Part shown: one piece after another, positions 5,479 to 32,826 of the stretch
How positions within the stretch are numbered: the stretch's first letter is position 1
Layout of the letters: every line of letters begins with the position of its first letter
NCBI GenBank assembly: GCA_023622545.1
Contig: JAMNZA010000125.1
Location: forward strand, 1-35,882
Reading direction: 5' to 3'
DNA length: 35,882 nt
From: Methanobacteriota archaeon
Lineage (GTDB): Archaea; Methanobacteriota_B; Thermococci; Methanofastidiosales; Methanofastidiosaceae
Translations under genes and position numbers: made by a program
Notes under the pieces: generated by a model
The model's database searches: none
Told to the model about the DNA's origin: nothing
Seen by the model: only the letters and a program-made list of their open reading frames with translations

Positions 5479-5718
5479 ATGAAAGTTATTGTGAAGTATT
5501 TTGCAATCTATAAGGAAACAACAGGCGTTCCCGAGGAGGCCTTTGAGTTGGATAGGGGCAAATCTATAAATGAGCTTCTCAGTATAATTATTAAAAAATA
5601 CAACTTCAAAGATCAGGATAGCATGGTAGTTTCATTAAATCACGATTATATCAAGACAGATGTAAAATTAAAAGACGGGGACGAAGTGGCCATAATGATG
5701 CCAACAAGCGGTGGATGA
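5479..5718 (+). CDS. moaD: Molybdopterin synthase sulfur carrier MoaD
   Basis: This ubiquitin-like 79-residue protein ends in SGG, the Gly-Gly tail that carries the thiocarboxylate used by molybdopterin synthase. DGDEVAIMMPTSGG is the family C-terminal block. It sits one base after moaA and overlaps the frame of moaE, its partner in the synthase. No MoeB/ThiF-type activating enzyme lies in the window. Confidence 0.93.
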   Translation: MKVIVKYFAIYKETTGVPEEAFELDRGKSINELLSIIIKKYNFKDQDSMVVSLNHDYIKTDVKLKDGDEVAIMMPTSGG

Positions 5719-23045: not shown

Positions 23046-23741
23046 CTAGATCCGCTCTATAGTAAATCTCTTCTTGTACCTTGTTAGGATCCTAATCGTC
23101 CTCTCTCCCATTATCCCCATAAACAACGCGTTGCCTATGGCATGGCTAACGTCCCAGCCGATGCTTAAGACATAAGTCCTAACAAACGTCTCAAATGTGT
23201 GAGGCTTAACAAAAAAGGCGAAGTGCCAGATGTTCATTATCCACCCGTATAAAAATCCCCAAGCTACTGCAAATACTATTATCAGTTTAAAATTGATCTC
23301 TTTTCTACCAAGATAACCGGCTGTCAAACCGGGTAATCCCCAGCCAATCATCTGAAGCGGCGTCCACGGCCCGTGGCCCAAAAAGAAGTTAGAAACAAAC
23401 GGCGTCAGTGCACCAACAAAGAATCCTGCAATCGGCCCAAACACTAATCCAGAGCAGATGATGAGGGTTGTGCACGGCTGGATCCCCTGGAAGTTTGAAA
23501 ACGGGATCCTTAGCACTGCAGAGATCCCTGATAGCATCGCAATCAATGTCAACTGCTTTGTGCTAAACTCCTTCCTCTCAAACTGGTAGACAAACGCTGC
23601 TATCACAAGCAAAAATATCCCAATTATCTCGTATGGCCACAGCTTAACAATCGTCCTTGATTCGTCAAACACTAATCCCCCGGCAAATAGCAGTATTCCA
23701 ACCCCGATGAATAGAAATGGGAAGATGTCGCTTGATTTTAT
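23046..23741 (-). CDS. ECF transporter S component (substrate-binding membrane subunit)
   Basis: This is the vitamin-binding membrane subunit of an energy-coupling-factor importer, about 231 residues with six or seven helices; TLIAMLSGISAVLRIP and VFGPIAGFFVGALTPFVSNF are typical S-component segments. No ATG is available. The GTG at 23672 would delete the first helix (FPFLFIGVGILLFAGGLVF), which is encoded in frame upstream. The frame reaches an ATA at 23741 three bases after SD GGTGAT and overlapping the ATPase stop as ATAA, just as ATGA would. The same SD spacing precedes the PAC2 ATG. The substrate is inferred to be a corrinoid from the divergent DUF4430 gene. Confidence 0.85.
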   Translation of the reverse strand: MKSSDIFPFLFIGVGILLFAGGLVFDESRTIVKLWPYEIIGIFLLVIAAFVYQFERKEFSTKQLTLIAMLSGISAVLRIPFSNFQGIQPCTTLIICSGLVFGPIAGFFVGALTPFVSNFFLGHGPWTPLQMIGWGLPGLTAGYLGRKEINFKLIIVFAVAWGFLYGWIMNIWHFAFFVKPHTFETFVRTYVLSIGWDVSHAIGNALFMGIMGERTIRILTRYKKRFTIERI

Positions 23742-25384
23742 CCGATCACCTTTAAGAGCTCGCCTACAGTGAGCGTGTCGTCTGGTATGCCATACTTAGC
23801 ATAAGGCTGCACGAGCCTATTAATTTGCGGAGAGAACAAAAGCGCTTTTGAAAGAACGTCCCGCTTGTTGCCATCTGATATGATGTTCCCCTCACTAACA
23901 AGCACTACCCTTTCTGCAAACTCTGCTGCAGTCTCGATGTCATGGGTCACCATGATAACAGTCTTTGCCTTTTCTTTCAGATATGAAATCAGCTCTTTTT
24001 TTAAGAAGTAGTCCATGCCCCTTGTTGGCTCATCAAGGATTAGCATCTCTGGTTCTGATACCAAAACAGACGCTAGTGCAACTCTCTGCCTTTCGCCTCC
24101 GGAAAGGTCGTGCGGGTAGCTCTTCCTGTACTGGTGGATCTTGAACTGCTTTAAGATCTTCTCTACCTTTTTGTCGATCAGCTCATCCTTCATCTCTAAG
24201 TTCCTTAAGACAAACGCTACCTCTTCTTCAACTGTGTCATTAAACAGGTGAAGGTTAGGGTCCTGGAAGACTATGCCAACCTTTTTGATGAGGTCGCTTA
24301 GCTCGTAGTCACCTATCTTTTTGCCAAACAAAAGGACCTTACCCTTTCGTGGCTTCACTAAACCATTCATCAGCTTCACAAGCGTTGTCTTACCGCTCGC
24401 GTTCTTTCCCATAAGGGCGATCATATCGCCCTCGTAAACGTCAAATGAAATGTTCTTCAAGACGTCCTTCTCGTGATCATAAGAAAAATAAACCTTGTCC
24501 ATTGATAGGCAGACTTTGCCACTGCTCTTTACCCGCTCCCAGCTAATCTTATTCTTTGGGTTAATCAGGACATCACTCAGGGCAGTCCTCGCCTCTTTAA
24601 CTGTCAAGGGCAATCCATTACTAAGCCTGTTTTGAAAATGAAGTGAGAGCCTTGTCACAGGCGGGAGCCCAACCTTCCAGTCCTCAAAGTGCGCGGACTT
24701 AATCTTTCTGGGGCTGCCGTCGTAGATGAGCCTCCCGTGGTCTATCATCAGCATCCTGTCCACATGGTGGATGACCCGCTCAAGCCTATGCTCCACGAGC
24801 AGTATGGTCAACCCTAGCTCATCGTTTATCTTCTCTATGACATTCAAAACACTCTCCGCACTCCTCGGGTCAAGCTCTGAAGTCGGCTCGTCTAACAGCA
24901 GGATGTCAGGGTGTGTCGCAAGCGCAGATGCGATCGCAACCTTCTGCTTCTGTCCACCGGAAAGCTCTGATGTCGTCCTGTTTCTAAGGCGCGTAATATT
25001 GACGGCATCAAGTGCCTCTTCAATCCTCTTTCTCATGAGCTCTTTAGAAAAGCAGAGGTTCTCCATGCCAAATGCAATCTCTCTCTCAACTTCATTAGAG
25101 ATCAGCTGGTTCTCCGGGTCCTGGAATACCATGCCAACAGTCTCGGACATCTCGTTTGTCGGGGTCTCTGAAGCATTCTTTCCATTAACGAGCACGGTTC
25201 CAGAGATCCTGCCGCCATAGAAGTTTGGTATCAAGCCGTTTATGGAGCGAAGGAATGTCGATTTTCCGCCGCCAGAAGGGCCTGTGATGACTAAGAACTC
25301 TCCTTCAGAGATCTTGACATTTATCCCATCAAGCGATGGCTCCGCACAATCTGGATAGTAAAATGAGAAATTGTTGAATCTAAT
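23738..25384 (-). CDS. ECF transporter ATPase, two fused ATP-binding domains
   Basis: One polypeptide of about 548 residues with two complete ABC ATPase domains, equivalent to EcfA and EcfA' fused. First domain: Walker A GPSGGGKS (35-42), LSGGQKQ (141-147), LLLDEP; second domain: GKNASGKT, LSGGERQRVALAS, LILDEP. The first conventional start, TTG at 25234, lies after Walker A and would yield a broken domain. The frame is open from 25384, where an ATT overlaps the stop of the T component (ATTAG), eight bases after SD GGTGAT. Start at ATT is therefore inferred. Confidence 0.9.
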   Translation of the reverse strand: MRFNNFSFYYPDCAEPSLDGINVKISEGEFLVITGPSGGGKSTFLRSINGLIPNFYGGRISGTVLVNGKNASETPTNEMSETVGMVFQDPENQLISNEVEREIAFGMENLCFSKELMRKRIEEALDAVNITRLRNRTTSELSGGQKQKVAIASALATHPDILLLDEPTSELDPRSAESVLNVIEKINDELGLTILLVEHRLERVIHHVDRMLMIDHGRLIYDGSPRKIKSAHFEDWKVGLPPVTRLSLHFQNRLSNGLPLTVKEARTALSDVLINPKNKISWERVKSSGKVCLSMDKVYFSYDHEKDVLKNISFDVYEGDMIALMGKNASGKTTLVKLMNGLVKPRKGKVLLFGKKIGDYELSDLIKKVGIVFQDPNLHLFNDTVEEEVAFVLRNLEMKDELIDKKVEKILKQFKIHQYRKSYPHDLSGGERQRVALASVLVSEPEMLILDEPTRGMDYFLKKELISYLKEKAKTVIMVTHDIETAAEFAERVVLVSEGNIISDGNKRDVLSKALLFSPQINRLVQPYAKYGIPDDTLTVGELLKVIG

Positions 25385-26315
25385 CGTAGGCCATCACCCC
25401 TTTAAGCTTCAGTAAAGGCAAAAGGAAGATTTCGCTAGCGAGCATCACTATGATGAAAAACGCCTCTGAGCTTGATTTTATCAGCGGGTCAATCCTCTGG
25501 TAGAACCTAAACGAACCTATACCTGAAAACGCCATGTATAGCGCTATCAAGAACGGCGCTACTGCAACTGCTATCAGCAATATATCTGAAGCTGAAAGCT
25601 TTGCATCTTTATAGAAGCTCCTCTTCTCATACCTGCCAAACCCTCTTGTCTCCATAGCCTCTGCTATCTGGACGCTTCTGTCCAGGCTTTTTGAGAGCAG
25701 AGGGAAGAATACCGCGCCGTACTTCTTTATCCTCTTCCTTAGCCCACCTTTAGAGAAGTCAACTCCTCTAGAGCGCTGCGCGTCCCTGATGTTGTTCAGG
25801 TCAGAAAAAAGCACTGGCACAAACTTCGTAGAGAGTGAAGATACAACAACAGATCTATATGGCAGCTTCAATTTGGTCACCGCTATAAGGAGCTCGTCAG
25901 GGTCAGTTGTCAAGTTCATGAGAGCAAATGCGCCCAGTATTGCGGCAAGCCTTATGCACATGGTAAGTGAGAATAGGAGCTCTTCGAGTGTTATATTGAG
26001 TATGCCGAATATTGGTATCATGAACGGCAGCTGCCACAAGACCGTCTCCCCGTTAGCGTTTACAATCATATTGAACAGTATGACAAACGGGACAAAGAAC
26101 AGGACAAGCCTCATGACGCTCAGCCAGTCCTTGAAAACATTTGATGAGAGCGCTGCAAAAAGCGATGATATGAAGAGCACTGAAAGGATGACCGGGTGCT
26201 CAAAGATCATAGAGATGAGGAGGATTGAAACTAGCCAGGTGATCTTAAGAAACGGAGAGGCGTCGTGGAATATGGACCTCTTCCTTTTATAGACGAGCTC
26301 GAGCATAATATTCAT
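25380..26315 (-). CDS. ecfT: ECF transporter transmembrane component EcfT
   Basis: This subunit couples ATP hydrolysis to the S component. It has about five to six helices and the two coupling-helix motifs ending in Arg-Gly: AQRSRGVDF and AMETRGFGRYEKRS. The length, 311 residues, is typical. Starts at 26315 or 26306 (ATG each) are both possible; the operator copy at 26314-26332 overlaps the first. It is the first gene of the T-A-S operon and divergent from the DUF4430 gene. Confidence 0.9.
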   Translation of the reverse strand: MNIMLELVYKRKRSIFHDASPFLKITWLVSILLISMIFEHPVILSVLFISSLFAALSSNVFKDWLSVMRLVLFFVPFVILFNMIVNANGETVLWQLPFMIPIFGILNITLEELLFSLTMCIRLAAILGAFALMNLTTDPDELLIAVTKLKLPYRSVVVSSLSTKFVPVLFSDLNNIRDAQRSRGVDFSKGGLRKRIKKYGAVFFPLLSKSLDRSVQIAEAMETRGFGRYEKRSFYKDAKLSASDILLIAVAVAPFLIALYMAFSGIGSFRFYQRIDPLIKSSSEAFFIIVMLASEIFLLPLLKLKGVMAYD

Positions 26316-26332
26316 GGATGGCTACACCATCC
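26314..26332. promoter_or_regulatory. Palindromic operator, copy 1 (ECF operon side)
   Basis: ATGGATGGCTACACCATCC, an inverted repeat GGATGG-N5-CCATCC. On the minus strand it lies just downstream of TATA-like GTTAAATAA (about 26336-26345), over the expected transcription start of the ECF operon. An identical 19-base copy lies at 26377. Confidence 0.65.
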
Positions 26333-26376
26333 TATTATTTAACATTTTCTGATTCATCGGTCCGAAAAGCATATAT

Positions 26377-26395
26377 ATGGATGGCTACACCATCC
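26377..26395. promoter_or_regulatory. Palindromic operator, copy 2 (DUF4430 side)
   Basis: Exact copy of 26314-26332; here the arms extend to ATGGATGG-N5-CCATCCAT (26377-26397). It overlaps or follows the TATA box CATATATATGG (about 26369-26379) of the plus-strand genes. A repressor binding here would block both divergent promoters. Confidence 0.65.
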
Positions 26396-26424
26396 ATACA
26401 GCAATTTTAATTGGAGGAAGATGG

Positions 26425-27381
26425 ATGAAACATAACAATTATAGGGATCTATTTGTTGGAATATTTTTTGTTTTAATTATGGTTTCGCTCCCACTGGCGA
26501 CAGCTGAAGTCATGGGAAGCGTACCCACATCATTTTCAAACGGGACAGTCTTTGTCACGGGCAGCACAGCAAACTCTCTAGATTTGCTTACAAGGGACAC
26601 TGTAGCAAAGAGCTTCAAGGAGAACGGTATTTTAAGCACAAATGCCATAGATAGCGAAGCCCCGCAAAACAGGCAGCTTATAGTCATAGGCGGGCCAGTA
26701 GCCAACAGCAAAACTCGAGAGCTAAACGAGCTCTTCGGCGTCAAATACGAAGAGACAAACGACAGGATCTTAATCACTGCAAAGGACCTGACCCTCTCAA
26801 AGCCAAAGCTTGGCATGGGTGAAGACATAGGTATAATCTACTTTGGCAAGGCGAACAATCAGAATGTGTTGATGCTCTGGGGTGCGTCCAGAGAAGGCAC
26901 TTTTGCAGCAGGGTTGATCTTAGAAGACGAAGCAAACTTCCAGAAGTATGCAAACTCACAGTTCCTTTTACTGAAATGGAAGGACAATAACGGCGACCAG
27001 TTTGTCCAGAAGGATGAGATATCTTTAACATCGGAAGCGCCTGCTGGTGCAGGAACAACTGTCACTGAAGATAAGGACACAGCCTCGGTCACAATCACAG
27101 CTGACTTCGGCGAAGGGTTCACCAAGGAGTGGAAGGTCAATGTCAAAAAGGATGAAACTATCTTTGATGCTATGAAGGCCACAGGGATGCAGTTTGACTA
27201 CAACATTCAATCTCTTGGCGTCTTTGTCACTTCCATCGAAGGGTTGGCAGAGAACAGGTCCACAGGCAGGTACTGGCAGTACTGGATAAACGGCGAATAC
27301 TCCCAGCTTGGTATCTCAATTGTCAACGTCACGGATGGCATGAAGATAGAGTGGAAGTACACAGATTCCTTCCAGAACTAG
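26425..27381 (+). CDS. Exported DUF4430 (transcobalamin-like) protein with S-layer-like segment
   Basis: 318 residues with a hydrophobic signal segment (FVGIFFVLIMVSLPLATA). The middle (TVFVTGSTANSLDLLTRDTV, then LIVIGGPVANSKTRELNELF and MLWGASREGTFAAGLIL) resembles the S-layer domain of methanogen surface proteins. The C-terminal 110 residues fit DUF4430, related to the cobalamin-binding C-terminal domain of transcobalamin (WKVNVKKDETIFDAMKATGM, GRYWQYWINGEYSQLGI). Lying across a shared operator from an ECF importer, it is a likely extracytoplasmic capture protein for a corrinoid or other ring compound. ATG 26425 has SD GGAGGA; the open frame upstream to 26377 runs through the operator. Confidence 0.8.
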   Translation: MKHNNYRDLFVGIFFVLIMVSLPLATAEVMGSVPTSFSNGTVFVTGSTANSLDLLTRDTVAKSFKENGILSTNAIDSEAPQNRQLIVIGGPVANSKTRELNELFGVKYEETNDRILITAKDLTLSKPKLGMGEDIGIIYFGKANNQNVLMLWGASREGTFAAGLILEDEANFQKYANSQFLLLKWKDNNGDQFVQKDEISLTSEAPAGAGTTVTEDKDTASVTITADFGEGFTKEWKVNVKKDETIFDAMKATGMQFDYNIQSLGVFVTSIEGLAENRSTGRYWQYWINGEYSQLGISIVNVTDGMKIEWKYTDSFQN

Positions 27382-27391
27382 GGTGGGCCGC

Positions 27392-30301
27392 ATGAAAAAA
27401 ATTATTTCCATTTTTTTATTATTGGCGTTTGTACTATCCCTCTTCCCTGCATCAGCACAGGAGCTACCTAACAGGGATTTCTTCATTGATGAAGAGGGAA
27501 ATCCGAAGTGCATGATAGTGTTAAGTGAAACAGCAACTGCCAAGGATATTGAAAAGGTCACTGAGATTATCACAAGGATAACAAACGAAACGGAATACTC
27601 TACAACGGGCACAACGGAGCAGATCGTCTGGGAATCAAAAAGCTTTGTTGAGGATGATTCAGATAATGTTGCTTTAGGATATACCGGGATAAAATCAAAT
27701 CCGGACTGGGTCTGGGAGATGAGGAGCTTCACAACACCTGCCTACTTCTACTCTCACGGCGCAGATCCAGCGCCCGCATGGCCGAACTGCCCCTTCTATG
27801 TTGAGAGTGTTGAAGCGCTTTTTGACGGGGATAGGAATACAAGGATAGTCGGGAGAACTGGTTACGATTTCGGAGGGCCAAGCTATGCGCCCGTTACACT
27901 TCTAGTGAAGTTCAACGACACAAAAGAGATCTCTGATGTGAACTTCACCTTTGAAAATCTCCCAGCCTCCGGGTACCAGATATATTATCTGAACTCCTAC
28001 TGCCCGAACACCCTCTACAATCCCGCTCTCTGGATGTATGGCGCCACAGGCAACTGGACGCTACTCCCAGTTTCTGGCGGATGGCCTAGGGCGGGTAGCT
28101 CTACAAAGACAACTGACAGCTTCTCTCTGACACAGAAGGTGAAGACAAACGCGCTTCTTATAGAATTAAATCCATTTTATATGACACCGCCAAATGCGGC
28201 GATGCCTTACTCTTTGTATGAAATTGAGGTCAAAGGCAGCTCGTTCTCAGTTCTTTATGGTAATACCTATTATATGGATTTCACATGGGCGGATGAAACT
28301 GGAAAGGACAAGAATGAACTAAAGCACCTCGACTACTGGATAGAGGATGTTAAGGAAACGCTGCCAGGGGATTTCATCCAGACAAGCGGGAAAAGTTACT
28401 CTACTGATACCTCCAGATACAATCTAATCACAAAGCAGGTGAACCTCCTCAGGATGTACAGGTATAACGAGGATAACTCCTTCCCTGATAAAACGGTAGG
28501 GAGGATCTTCTACGGGACGCCAAGGACATGGGAGGACGAGGAGTTTAAGGTAAACCAGACAAAGACCTACGGCAAATACAAGGTTAAGCTCGTTGATATC
28601 AACTGGGAGAAGAGCCAGACGACTGTGAACTTTGATCATAAGGGAGGTAGCGATTATCTCGGTGAGAAGAAGGTCACAGTTGAGGTAACTGACCCAGATG
28701 GCATTGTGAAGAGGCATATAATGACTATCGACTGCTGTGATAACGCATTGGCAGAGCTATTCGTCTCTACAGATGCTGAATCAAAAGCAGCAGAAAATGC
28801 AATCTGCAGGTTGAAGAGTGAAGGATACCTTTGCGACATAACTCCAGTCATATTCCACTCAGATGCTCTTGACCCTCTCTACTTAAGCCCTGCAAGCGAC
28901 CATTTAGGTGCAGGTGCAGCAGGCATCTGGCCATCCTACGCATACATCTATGGGTACGGATACGACGCTAGTGACAGCACAAATTCTCCTACATTAATCT
29001 TCAACGGGAACAAGTCAAAAGCCATACAGGAAGTTCCTCCAAACACTGAAGATGCGTACTACGAGGCGTTCAAGGCGATGTATGAGGGAAACGTCAGCGG
29101 GTGCTGCGACGCCAAGATAGTCATCAACACCAACATGGACTCTGAAAGATTCACAACTGCAAAGGATAAGGAGGCTCTTGTCACTGTCAGGTTGGAAAAG
29201 GATCTCCCGAACACTGAGCTCTACCTAAACGTCTGGGGCATAACATGCGACTGCTGCGCACCTGTTGCTACAGGCCTTGTAACTTCACAGTACTGGCAGA
29301 ACATCAACAAGTGGTCCACAGAGTGCTCTGAAAAGGTGACAGACACCTACTGGAAGGAGCTAAAGGGCGGCGATGTCTATAGGACTGAGATCAATCTCTG
29401 CGGGACAAACTACTGCGGCGTGGTCGCATTCCTCCAGGACAAGAACACCGGGAAGATCTATGGATCAGCGATTAGGCATTTTGATCCAAAACCTGGGGCA
29501 AACCTCTCTCCTGACATCGCATCATCAGACTGCCAGTGCGTCGTTGAGTACAACAAGGATCTTGACTGCGATAACTATGAGGAAGAAGTGGAGTTCGCAA
29601 TAGAAGGTGCAGATGTAGCGTTTGTCGGGATGGAGCACGATCTAGAAAAGAACATTGACGGCGAAATAAAGAAGAACATGATCGCAAGGTTCAACATCTA
29701 TTCGCTTACAGATTACGGCTGCATTGACGACTGCGACTGCAACTACATATCAAATGACGGCTCCAAGTGGAAGCTAAAGTTCTTGATGAACGACGGCAAT
29801 GTCTATAATCCTTATGTGGATAGATGCCAAGACTGCACAAAGGACCTCCGCTCAATCAAGATAGAGCTATGCGAGCCAATCACATTCGGATGCCTAAAAG
29901 AGGGGGCAGTCTTCTGGGGGCCGGACAGGTACTTCAGGGTATACGTAGAGGACTACGACGAGGAAAAGCAGTATGTCAAGTACAAAGTGCAGAGGGTAAA
30001 TCTACTTTCAGATGAGAAGCCGATAAATACAAGTGTGGATCCAAAGGCTATGATAAAGACCGATAAAGAGATCACATCAGAAGACAGGGCAAAGTACAAC
30101 ATGATCCTGATCGGTAACAGCGAAACAAATCTAGAAATAAGGAAACTCAAAGAACAGGGCGACTACACTGAATCAGATGGCATGTCATACCTAGAGGATA
30201 TTTATGGTGAAAAGGATATACTAGTGCTGAATGCAGAAAACGTCACAGACTTAAACGAGCCCATCAGGCAGCTTACATACCTTCTCGATTTAATATTTTA
30301 A
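27392..30301 (+). CDS. Large Cys-rich S-layer-like surface protein
   Basis: 969 residues. Signal peptide MKKIISIFLLLAFVLSLFPASA. The mature N-terminus (DFFIDEEGNPKCMIVLSETA, then AKDIEKVTEIITRI) and the C-terminus (YNMILIGNSETNLEIRKLKE ... GEKDILVLNAENVTDLNEPI) look like the two split halves of a methanogen S-layer protein. Between them lies a long beta-rich, sequon-rich region with Cys clusters (DCC, GCC, CDCC, CQC, CDCDC, CQDC). No C-terminal membrane anchor is seen. ATG 27392 is chosen with SD GGGTGGG (27381-27387). It starts 11 bases after the DUF4430 gene and should share its operator. Specific function unknown; surface receptor or scaffold for the uptake system is plausible. Confidence 0.75.
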   Translation: MKKIISIFLLLAFVLSLFPASAQELPNRDFFIDEEGNPKCMIVLSETATAKDIEKVTEIITRITNETEYSTTGTTEQIVWESKSFVEDDSDNVALGYTGIKSNPDWVWEMRSFTTPAYFYSHGADPAPAWPNCPFYVESVEALFDGDRNTRIVGRTGYDFGGPSYAPVTLLVKFNDTKEISDVNFTFENLPASGYQIYYLNSYCPNTLYNPALWMYGATGNWTLLPVSGGWPRAGSSTKTTDSFSLTQKVKTNALLIELNPFYMTPPNAAMPYSLYEIEVKGSSFSVLYGNTYYMDFTWADETGKDKNELKHLDYWIEDVKETLPGDFIQTSGKSYSTDTSRYNLITKQVNLLRMYRYNEDNSFPDKTVGRIFYGTPRTWEDEEFKVNQTKTYGKYKVKLVDINWEKSQTTVNFDHKGGSDYLGEKKVTVEVTDPDGIVKRHIMTIDCCDNALAELFVSTDAESKAAENAICRLKSEGYLCDITPVIFHSDALDPLYLSPASDHLGAGAAGIWPSYAYIYGYGYDASDSTNSPTLIFNGNKSKAIQEVPPNTEDAYYEAFKAMYEGNVSGCCDAKIVINTNMDSERFTTAKDKEALVTVRLEKDLPNTELYLNVWGITCDCCAPVATGLVTSQYWQNINKWSTECSEKVTDTYWKELKGGDVYRTEINLCGTNYCGVVAFLQDKNTGKIYGSAIRHFDPKPGANLSPDIASSDCQCVVEYNKDLDCDNYEEEVEFAIEGADVAFVGMEHDLEKNIDGEIKKNMIARFNIYSLTDYGCIDDCDCNYISNDGSKWKLKFLMNDGNVYNPYVDRCQDCTKDLRSIKIELCEPITFGCLKEGAVFWGPDRYFRVYVEDYDEEKQYVKYKVQRVNLLSDEKPINTSVDPKAMIKTDKEITSEDRAKYNMILIGNSETNLEIRKLKEQGDYTESDGMSYLEDIYGEKDILVLNAENVTDLNEPIRQLTYLLDLIF

Positions 30302-30398: not shown

Positions 30399-30866
30399 AT
30401 GAAAAAGATATTTGCTATTTTGGTAAGCTTGTTATTTGCAGTTGCGACTTTAAGTTCTGTGAGTGGATTTTGTGAAGCTCCCGATAATGTCTGTCATGGG
30501 TATTGTTTAACGTGTATTATATCACCCTGCTCTTCAAGTACAAGCTATTGTAATATTTATGGGCCAAGTTTAGTTCATGTAGGTGACATCATTACTGTAG
30601 AAATACATGGCGTTGGTTGTAATCTACAAAACAGTGGATTTATTTTCTGCGATAATTTTGAAGTTATATCTTTTGATCTTGAGTTAACAGGTATCTCTGA
30701 AAGCGGATGCAGTGCAATTGCAGTCTATAAACTTAAGGCATTGAGTCCTGGTGCGGTGGGTGCAACTTTTGAGTGCAATGAGAACAAACTTAATATTACC
30801 ATAACCCCAAAGGAATACCCGATGCAACAGTTCATGAAGATACTTGAAAAGAACAAAAACAAGTAA
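30399..30866 (+). CDS. Secreted Cys-rich Ig-like protein with partly decayed tail
   Basis: 155 residues with signal peptide MKKIFAILVSLLFAVATLSS. About eleven Cys are in the mature part. VHVGDIITVEIHG and YKLKALSPGAVGATFE match the early and late strands of the proteins at 9477 and 13467. The tail reads EYPMQQFMKILEKNKNK: the PMQQFMK half is kept, the GLGKKD half is replaced by a basic end. It is adjacent to and upstream of a further member at 30964, with a duplicated upstream region. Confidence 0.78.
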   Translation: MKKIFAILVSLLFAVATLSSVSGFCEAPDNVCHGYCLTCIISPCSSSTSYCNIYGPSLVHVGDIITVEIHGVGCNLQNSGFIFCDNFEVISFDLELTGISESGCSAIAVYKLKALSPGAVGATFECNENKLNITITPKEYPMQQFMKILEKNKNK

Positions 30867-30895
30867 TTATTTTTTATTTCAACTTTTTTCTTATA
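30867..30895 (+). terminator. U-rich terminator
   Basis: TTATTTTTTATTTC followed by CTTTTTTCTT immediately after the stop codon. Confidence 0.5.
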
Positions 30896-30910
30896 TTTCA
30901 AGTTAGGCGA

Positions 30911-30963
30911 AAGTTTAAATATATATCAAGATTTATTTTTAGATAATTATGGTTGTGTTCACA
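30911..30963 (+). promoter_or_regulatory. Secreted-family promoter/leader module, variant
   Basis: AAGTTTAAATATAT (30911-30924), ATTTATTTTTAG, then GGTTGTG as a diverged SD before ATG 30964. The SD replaces GGTGATT of the other members. Confidence 0.55.
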
Positions 30964-31479
30964 ATGAATAAAATAATATCAATATTGTTATCCTTGTTTT
31001 TTATAACAAGTATTTTTGGTGTTGCTCAAACGACGGCTGAAGAAATTTCACTATGTGATTATTGCTATGGATCTGGACCTAACAATATTACAGTCCAAGT
31101 TGGGGATACATTGGTAGTAGATCCAGGGATTTTAGGTATCATTGAGTGGGATCCTCATTATGAGCCTAAAATTTTTCCTGCAGAAGAGATAGCCCCAGGT
31201 AAGTCTCGCCAGGTCATAGACTATGGATTTTTCATCTATGAAATGATAGTAGATCCATCAAACCCGGGCTTTCCCATCCAAGAAAAAATCAAGGTCCTCG
31301 GCCCTGGAACAATAAATTTCGCTTTTGTTTGTATCGAACTTCCCTCCTCTATTTGTATCAGAACAGATTTCACTGTTACAATAGTACCAAAGCCGCTTCC
31401 AATGGATCAGATAACAAATATACTCGAAAAGAACAGATGCAAGAATCACCCTGATGCCGAAGGATGCGAAGTTAATTAA
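30964..31479 (+). CDS. Secreted Ig-like protein with divergent, extended tail
   Basis: 171 residues from ATG 30964 (MNKIISILLSLFFITSIFGV, a signal peptide). The ATG at 30949 would put five residues before the signal and lies on the SD region, so it is not used. The mature part has VQVGDTLVVDPG and VLGPGTINFAFV, the Ig-like pattern. The tail begins PLPMDQITNILEKN as in the family, then continues into a Cys-containing end (RCKNHPDAEGCEVN) instead of GLGKKD. This is the most diverged member. Confidence 0.75.
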   Translation: MNKIISILLSLFFITSIFGVAQTTAEEISLCDYCYGSGPNNITVQVGDTLVVDPGILGIIEWDPHYEPKIFPAEEIAPGKSRQVIDYGFFIYEMIVDPSNPGFPIQEKIKVLGPGTINFAFVCIELPSSICIRTDFTVTIVPKPLPMDQITNILEKNRCKNHPDAEGCEVN

Positions 31480-31520
31480 TTTTATTTTTTATTCTCTTAT
31501 TTTCTATTAATTTATTTTCT
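31480..31520 (+). terminator. U-rich terminator
   Basis: TTTTATTTTTTATTCTCTTA and TTTATTTTCTT after the stop codon. Confidence 0.5.
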
Positions 31521-31526
31521 TAGCAA

Positions 31527-31578
31527 ATGTTTAAATATCTAAAATTATTATTCTTAACAATTATAATGGTGATTTATT
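31527..31578 (+). promoter_or_regulatory. Secreted-family promoter/leader module
   Basis: TATA box ATGTTTAAATATCT (31527-31540), then ACAATTATAATGGTGATTT to the ATG. The leader is nearly identical to that of its paralog at 14026, on the opposite strand 17 kb away. Confidence 0.65.
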
Positions 31579-32151
31579 ATGAAGAAACATGCAATAATAT
31601 TGATTGGAGTTCTTCTGATTTCATTTATCTTCATGGCAAGTGCAAGTGCAGCCTACAAACAGACGATAGTTAAGGAGCTTGAGTGTGAGGATGAGGAATA
31701 CGAAGAAGAGGCATATGATACAGAATTCATTTTTACAAACGTTCCTGCAACAGGGCCATATACTTTGACTGTCAGCATAAAAGGAGACTACAACGGATAT
31801 AATGCTGGTGAATATGTAGAGATTTTTATTGAAGGAACTTCATTCGGTGTGTTTCCAGAAGGGTATAATGGGGACTGGCAATGTTCCTGTGAATTCCTTA
31901 CAAAAACTGTTACCTTGACACAAGCACAGGTAAGTCAATGGATGTCCGATGGCCAAATCGTAGTCACTTTAGAACAGGGTTTTGATGTAGACTGTTTCTG
32001 TGGAGAAGATAGTTGGGATGATATGTGTAAGTGTGGTGACACTTCTAAATGTACTAATACAAACATGGTCACATTAGAATCTTCTGGTGCAAGTAATTCA
32101 CTTCCAATGGACTGGATAATGAAGAAGTTCGGACTTGGCAACAAAGATTAA
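31579..32151 (+). CDS. Secreted beta-sandwich protein (type 2 domain) with the LPM/GLG tail
   Basis: 190 residues with signal peptide MKKHAIILIGVLLISFIFMA. It is a full-length paralog of the protein at 14026: AYDTEFIFTNVPATGPYTLT, GDYNGYNAGEYVEIFIEGTS, SDGQIVVTLEQGFDV. It differs by an acidic insert (EDEEYEEEAYD) and extra Cys (CFCGED, CKCGD). The tail is NSLPMDWIMKKFGLGNKD, closest to that of the Ig-like protein at 9477. This pairing of one tail with two folds shows the tail is a separate module. Confidence 0.8.
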   Translation: MKKHAIILIGVLLISFIFMASASAAYKQTIVKELECEDEEYEEEAYDTEFIFTNVPATGPYTLTVSIKGDYNGYNAGEYVEIFIEGTSFGVFPEGYNGDWQCSCEFLTKTVTLTQAQVSQWMSDGQIVVTLEQGFDVDCFCGEDSWDDMCKCGDTSKCTNTNMVTLESSGASNSLPMDWIMKKFGLGNKD

Positions 32152-32223: not shown

Positions 32224-32826
32224 ATGTTTGAAAAAAGGGCCATCCCGCAGGCAAACTTCACAAACGCGGACATCCTAATCGCTCTAAAGATTATCGAGAA
32301 TGAGGAGAGCATCGGGCGGAAGCTCCTTTCAAAGAGGATGTTCCTAAACGAGGCTAGCATCAGATCAATTCTAACAAAACTAAAAGATTCAGACTACATT
32401 AGCTCCTCAAGGCTTGGCCACAACGTCACAAGGAAAGGGAGGGATTTCATAGACAGATCAATCCAGTTCGAGGCGCCTTCTGAAATAAATGCTAAGGAGC
32501 TCACTTTGAACAGCAAGAACTTCGGCACCCTGATAAAAGGGGCGTCGTCTAAGATAAATGACGGTATGGACCAGAGGGATAACGCGGTCTTTGGCGGGGC
32601 CAGGTCTGCTATCACCTTGATTTTTAGAGACGGCCATTTTTCCCTGCCTGAAATAAAACCTGAAATCAAAATCCCGACGATAAAACTAAATCTCAGCAAA
32701 GCTCTAGAAACAGAGCTCCACGAGAAGTTCAGCCCCAAGAACAACGATGTCGTCATAATAGCAAGTGCAGAGGATGATGAGCGAGCTTTCAGGGGCATCG
32801 TCCACGTTATAGATTCTTTTATTTGA
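32224..32826 (+). CDS. Winged-helix DUF4443 family regulator
   Basis: 200 residues. The N-terminal part (about 15-80: ADILIALKIIENEESIGRKL, RSILTKLKDSDYISSSRLGH, NVTRKGRDFI) is a winged helix-turn-helix. The C-terminal part (about 90-200, with KINDGMDQRDNA and VVIIASAEDDERAFRGIVHV) matches the archaeal DUF4443 ligand-binding-like region, as I recall that family. TATA-like AATATATATTG (32191-32201) lies about 28 bases before the ATG, so a leaderless mRNA is likely. It may regulate the adjacent flavoprotein gene or the secreted genes; no site can be assigned. Confidence 0.75.
   Translation: MFEKRAIPQANFTNADILIALKIIENEESIGRKLLSKRMFLNEASIRSILTKLKDSDYISSSRLGHNVTRKGRDFIDRSIQFEAPSEINAKELTLNSKNFGTLIKGASSKINDGMDQRDNAVFGGARSAITLIFRDGHFSLPEIKPEIKIPTIKLNLSKALETELHEKFSPKNNDVVIIASAEDDERAFRGIVHVIDSFI

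Follow-up and report, generated by a model that had tools for sequence, protein, structure and literature searches.

The palindrome GGATGG-N5-CCATCC, present twice between two divergent operons of a Methanofastidiosaceae archaeon, is, judging from genome comparison, the operator of a corrinoid (B12) regulon shared by many archaea, since it precedes genes for B12 uptake, synthesis and use across archaea. The operators are probably bound by a dimer of a DUF4443 protein, with B12 switching uptake off and use on. The operator itself, its gene set, its two placements relative to the TATA box and its linkage to DUF4443 genes can be read directly from the sequences. The window (the whole stretch of DNA analysed, 35,882 nucleotides) carries the following features of the cluster.

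23046..23672, minus strand: ECF transporter S component, proposed corrinoid substrate (Pfam ECF_trnsprt, E 2.9e-16)
23738..25234, minus strand: double ECF ATPase (CbiO-like), listed ORF; homology extends upstream to about 25380
25380..26306, minus strand: cbiQ-like ECF transporter T component (Pfam CbiQ, E 5e-34)
26316..26332, minus strand: operator 1, GGATGG-N5-CCATCC, between the TATA box and the start of the cbiQ/ECF operon
26336..26343, minus strand: TATA-like box of the cbiQ operon, GTTAAATA, a few nucleotides before operator 1
26370..26377, plus strand: TATA-like box of the DUF4430 operon, CATATATA, a few nucleotides before operator 2
26379..26395, plus strand: operator 2, same core as operator 1, located between TATA box and start of the DUF4430 operon
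26425..27381, plus strand: secreted DUF4430 protein with an S-layer-like part (Pfam DUF4430, E 3.5e-14)
27383..30301, plus strand: large secreted S-layer-like protein, next in the DUF4430 operon, same order in relatives
32224..32826, plus strand: candidate regulator with a PH0730-like/CggR-like winged helix and a DUF4443 domain (domain and structure matches)

An earlier note on this DNA had described two exact copies of the palindrome 63 bases apart, each closely following one of a divergent pair of TATA boxes, and this description holds: GGATGGCTACACCATCC occurs at 26316-26332 and 26379-26395, with the starts 63 bp apart, and the boxes were located as CATATATA on the plus strand, preceded by CGAAAAG (BRE-like), and GTTAAATA on the minus strand. 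A scan of the window allowing up to two mismatches returned the two perfect operators and two other matches with two mismatches each; the source assembly (1.29 Mb, 68% complete) contains four perfect copies, and zero matches to the reversed-pattern control. The note had seen no cobalamin riboswitch, and Rfam likewise gave none in the window, where its matches were two tRNAs only. It had further proposed a dimeric repressor shutting off both the ECF operon and the DUF4430/S-layer-like genes; comparative genomics backs an operator common to both, at a repressor position; repression, binding by a dimer and a ligand are predicted.

All components of an ECF transporter (T, ATPase and S) are encoded at 23046-26306. 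The cbiQ start was placed at the ATG conserved in relatives; the product falls below the cut-off of model TIGR02454, and the S component matched no curated S-component model above cut-off. The listed start of the ATPase ORF is a TTG at 25234, and homology runs upstream of it (25234-25380, minus strand) to a stop at the cbiQ end, through an extension without ATG, GTG or TTG, which probably reflects a rare start codon or an error in sequencing. On the divergent side, an ORF finder puts the DUF4430 start at 26377, inside operator 2; translation more likely begins at the in-frame ATG at 26425, which has a GGAGG 7 nt before it. Downstream, three small secreted-protein genes (30399-32151) separate the S-layer-like gene from the DUF4443 gene in this genome; in relatives nothing of the kind intervenes and these two genes are about 55 bp apart. 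The profile of the archaeal DUF4430 family matches Transcobalamin-1 (E 2.6e-4) and also intrinsic factor, and a published account (PMC4350170) identifies DUF4430 with the C-terminal domain of vertebrate B12-binding proteins. Corrinoid is the proposed substrate of the ECF transporter because of the operator and the transcobalamin-like DUF4430 partner, and the natural reading is that a surface corrinoid receptor (DUF4430) would feed the ECF importer.

Each of the ten Ca. Methanofastidiosum genomes has three to six perfect copies of the operator, and the reversed control matched in none of them. The divergent pair, 62-66 bp apart, is kept in every genome of the genus but G005, in whose assembly no pair was found. 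Between species the N5 centre and the flanks differ, and the arms together with the TGGATGG/CCATCCA edges are conserved. The other targets in the source genome are a 584-aa MtsA-like fusion of a URO-D-type methyltransferase with a corrinoid domain (C38) and a corrinoid protein plus URO-D methyltransferases (C37); in one further genome (G006) the operator precedes CbiMNQ. The regulon was listed from pattern searches and fetched stretches, by which degenerate sites may be missed, and matches inside ORFs in G020 (C116), G024, G043, G047 and G100 were set aside as chance.

In six genomes of the genus the operator stands before a leaderless Cys-rich ORF of 47 aa near ECF-S or BtuF-like genes. This small ORF (47-48 aa, MDNKCIICKCEL...CEECYEKY) lies directly behind the operator, is conserved in the six genomes and is easily missed by annotation; its positions are as follows.

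L026 10860, L030 4113, L033 8398, L037 13413, L043 4037, L048 1563: leaderless Cys-rich small ORF

Separately, mtsA-like promoters (L005 at about 5555-5570, and L027) contain a GGTTAGTTAACC inverted repeat about 35-40 nt after the operator, which could be a second regulatory site.

The operator extends well beyond the genus. Both Theionarchaea genomes contain four copies, with zero control matches. In both, the operator stands before btuF, which btuC/D-like genes follow, before cobD-cbiP, and before an ECF S gene with an AIR-synthase-like kinase gene behind it; among the neighbouring genes are CobY-like, CobS and CbiZ genes. Scanning the GTDB collection with a 16-base form of the operator gave at least 80 loci, with 26 archaeal and 54 bacterial among the matches listed. 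The earlier note held that many copies inside coding regions, unlinked to promoters, would refute its reading; among the matches listed, 25 of the 26 archaeal but 17 of the 54 bacterial ones lie outside ORFs. Archaeal targets include mtaBC in Methanosuratincola, mcrB in Methanomassiliicoccales, ECF S components with DUF4430 partners in Aigarchaeota and Bathyarchaeota, and further corrinoid and URO-D genes and BtuD-like ATPases. Perfect copies occur in 46 of 61 evenly drawn Methanomassiliicoccales genomes, part of them inside ORFs and thus due to chance, against a total of five matches for the reversed control. A link to cobalamin genes, which the note had suggested looking for, is confirmed because the other operator-bearing genes concern cobalamin. 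Among 94 Thermococcaceae genomes a single copy was found, inside a TetR-like gene. The Thermococcales cobS regions and the surroundings of DUF4443 genes gave one weak intergenic match (up to two mismatches) and no convincing related palindrome, and the signal there must therefore be different or lie elsewhere.

The position of the operator relative to the TATA box differs with the class of gene. Gene classes were assigned from annotation first, and the TATA box was located afterwards. Of 37 promoters of uptake, synthesis and small-ORF genes, 36 have a TATA box that starts 7-14 nt before the operator (the remaining one has a downstream TATA box), whereas 23 of 24 promoters of B12-use genes have it 8-12 nt behind the operator. 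Shuffling led us to expect 7.0 and 1.7 such placements, respectively, against the 36/37 and 23/24 observed, counts that include many orthologues and are not independent trials. The same division recurs in gene families and phyla that are unrelated; mtsA promoters have a second TATA-like stretch before the operator as well. In archaea, a protein bound between the TATA box and the start site blocks transcription, and one bound just upstream of the BRE/TATA can recruit TBP/TFB. Because the operator lies upstream of the TATA box at genes of B12-dependent enzymes, its protein is probably not only a repressor.

The Methanomassiliicoccales mcrB promoters also carry the operator upstream of the TATA box (L219, L206, L208, L174, L152, L357, L360, L363 and L370). 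mcrB is not a B12 enzyme gene, and this placement would tie methyl-CoM reductase expression to the corrinoid regulon.

Within the window cluster, 32224-32826 is the one gene annotated as a winged helix-turn-helix protein, with a PH0730-like N-terminal domain followed by DUF4443. Its product matches PDB entry 2P8T in sequence (E 1.1e-10) and, as an AlphaFold model (pLDDT 82), in fold; the winged helix of the model superposes on that of operator-bound CggR at 0.7 A over 64 columns. No known B12-binding domain and no MerR domain were found in the protein by Pfam. All six Methanofastidiosum genomes in which a DUF4443 gene was found have it on the same contig as the operator pair, 50-56 bp behind the DUF4430 operon in four genomes of the genus and 144 bp behind it in one. 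In three of the four genus genomes without a DUF4443 match the contig with the pair ends there, and the fourth is G005. The Methanofastidiosum DUF4443 gene has no operator immediately before it, and control there would therefore be through the operon.

Outside the phylum, DUF4443 was found in 16 of 18 motif-bearing genomes. One Theionarchaeon with the motif (an incomplete genome) gave no DUF4443, and neither did one Bathyarchaeon. A perfect operator precedes the DUF4443 gene of a Bathyarchaeon, and in Methanomassiliicoccales an operator with up to two mismatches precedes 30 of 41 long DUF4443-DUF2111 genes versus 1 of 27 short paralogs. At the long genes its position hardly ever varies and is immediately upstream of the gene (null expectation 0.019 per gene). 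Repressors commonly autoregulate from in front of their own gene, and it is mainly because the operator precedes DUF4443 genes in this manner that DUF4443 is named here as the candidate regulator.

The surroundings of the two Methanomassiliicoccales forms (L282-L286, L315, L317-L356) differ: the long fusion often adjoins a gene for an AtwA-like ABC protein, and the short paralog, without operator, often adjoins archaeal SAM synthetase-like genes. The presence or absence of DUF4443 was rejected as proof when taken alone, as all 40 Thermococcaceae genomes and all five genomes of family f4 that were searched have the protein with almost no operator, and subfamilies with other sites must therefore exist. 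In one Thermococcaceae genome (L125 5705-8115) a DUF4443 gene lies about 57 bp behind a gene that by eye resembles methylmalonyl-CoA mutase, hinting that DUF4443 may be tied to B12 in that lineage as well, through a different operator.

We infer the binding by DUF4443, the corrinoid ligand and the sign of each effect, and propose the following mechanism. A dimer of the winged-helix DUF4443 protein (32224-32826) would bind both palindromes. When B12 is sufficient, the B12-bound dimer would sit between the TATA box and the transcription start and block uptake and synthesis genes, which in the window would be the ECF transporter operon and the divergent DUF4430/S-layer-like operon, directly behind which the DUF4443 gene lies in relatives. 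At the MtsA-like, corrinoid/URO-D methyltransferase and Methanomassiliicoccales mcrB promoters, the same protein bound upstream of the TATA box would help to recruit TBP/TFB, so that a single signal would turn uptake off and B12 use on. The B12-bound form is taken as the DNA-bound form because the opposite would have uptake repressed during starvation, which makes little sense. The wider statement, that DUF4443 is a widespread archaeal B12-sensing family acting through one 17-21 bp palindrome, repressing uptake and synthesis and activating methyl metabolism including mcr, we regard as an even proposition.

Other explanations agree with parts of these data. The regulon could be as described and the operator be read by another binder, such as an HTH-CBS protein or an unlinked factor, with DUF4443 a neighbour engaged in another task. 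An HTH-CBS gene, two genes upstream of the mtsA-like gene, is indeed close to the operator in the genus, and DUF4443 is found also in lineages without the operator; however, the HTH-CBS gene was seen near the operator in this genus alone, in a single conserved block that also holds a PRPP synthase gene, whereas DUF4443 is linked to the operator repeatedly, in archaeal phyla that are unrelated, and some DUF4443 genes have the operator immediately upstream. Another binder is thus unlikely, and HTH-CBS is retained only as a rival because its link is one synteny block. More doubtful still is that a metal-responsive regulator of metal uptake senses cobalt (or nickel) and not corrinoid. The operator at CbiMNQ in one genome, the CbiQ-type T component of the window operon and the mcrB target in Methanomassiliicoccales, whose enzyme has a nickel cofactor, would fit a metal signal, but most targets concern finished or salvaged corrinoid (BtuF, CobD, CbiP, CblT-type ECF S genes and corrinoid methyltransferases), and the window S component matches ECF_trnsprt and not CbiM.

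That the palindrome acts as a small RNA hairpin controlling translation or termination is very improbable. The sequence could fold into a 6-bp stem with a 5-nt loop, and operator 1 abuts the start region of cbiQ; yet at the use genes the palindrome lies upstream of the TATA box and would be left out of transcripts from that promoter, on which ground this reading was rejected. The hairpin also matched no Rfam family, and conservation covers its symmetric arms and the flanking TGGATGG but not the N5 "loop", whose sequence is free to vary. Short as the motif is, its origin by chance, or as a repeat element without a regulatory role, hardly deserves consideration, given zero matches to control patterns against three to six operators per genus genome, the placement at promoters and the conservation over ten species with diverged flanks.

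Methyl-dependent methanogenesis in Methanomassiliicoccales needs corrinoids. With the operator at corrinoid methyltransferases in Methanofastidiosum and Methanosuratincola and at mcr in Methanomassiliicoccales, B12 supply would be tied to methane formation. A B12 regulon in many archaea is here linked to a specific candidate protein family, of which a solved member is annotated as "hypothetical", and DUF4443, if it binds the operator, would be the regulator so far missing from the picture of archaeal B12 metabolism. A literature search gave no paper assigning a function to DUF4443 or reporting the GGATGG-N5-CCATCC motif.

The transporter side resembles the ECF-type vitamin transporters with DUF4430 surface proteins, having the same T component, double ATPase and S component beside a transcobalamin-like secreted protein, but the window S component matches no curated family above cut-off. 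The candidate regulator belongs with the PH0730-like/DUF4443 proteins (PF22167 and PF14544; 2P8T): it has both domains and matches in sequence and fold, and 2P8T was deposited as a hypothetical protein. In bacteria the same sort of genes is controlled by the cobalamin riboswitch, whose role would be taken here by a DNA palindrome, no riboswitch being found in the window. CarH is a MerR-type protein with a B12-binding domain. This bacterial repressor is a B12-responsive DNA-binding protein, as the candidate is proposed to be, but the window DUF4443 protein has neither a MerR helix-turn-helix nor a B12-binding domain. For archaea, Rodionov et al. 2003 reportedly described a "CBL-box". A cobalamin regulon "CblR" has been predicted in P. 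furiosus (RegPrecise), with its factor unknown (PMC10746257). Both are, like the operator described here, predicted protein-bound DNA signals for archaeal cobalamin genes, and ours is likewise a conserved palindromic DNA signal upstream of archaeal cobalamin transport and synthesis genes. It differs from CblR in its near absence from Pyrococcus and Thermococcus (the one Thermococcaceae copy mentioned above). CblR has no named factor, whereas DUF4443 is proposed here, and B12-use genes and a second placement are added. A regulon of this kind is known; the candidate regulator, the reach of the regulon and its two-position logic look new.
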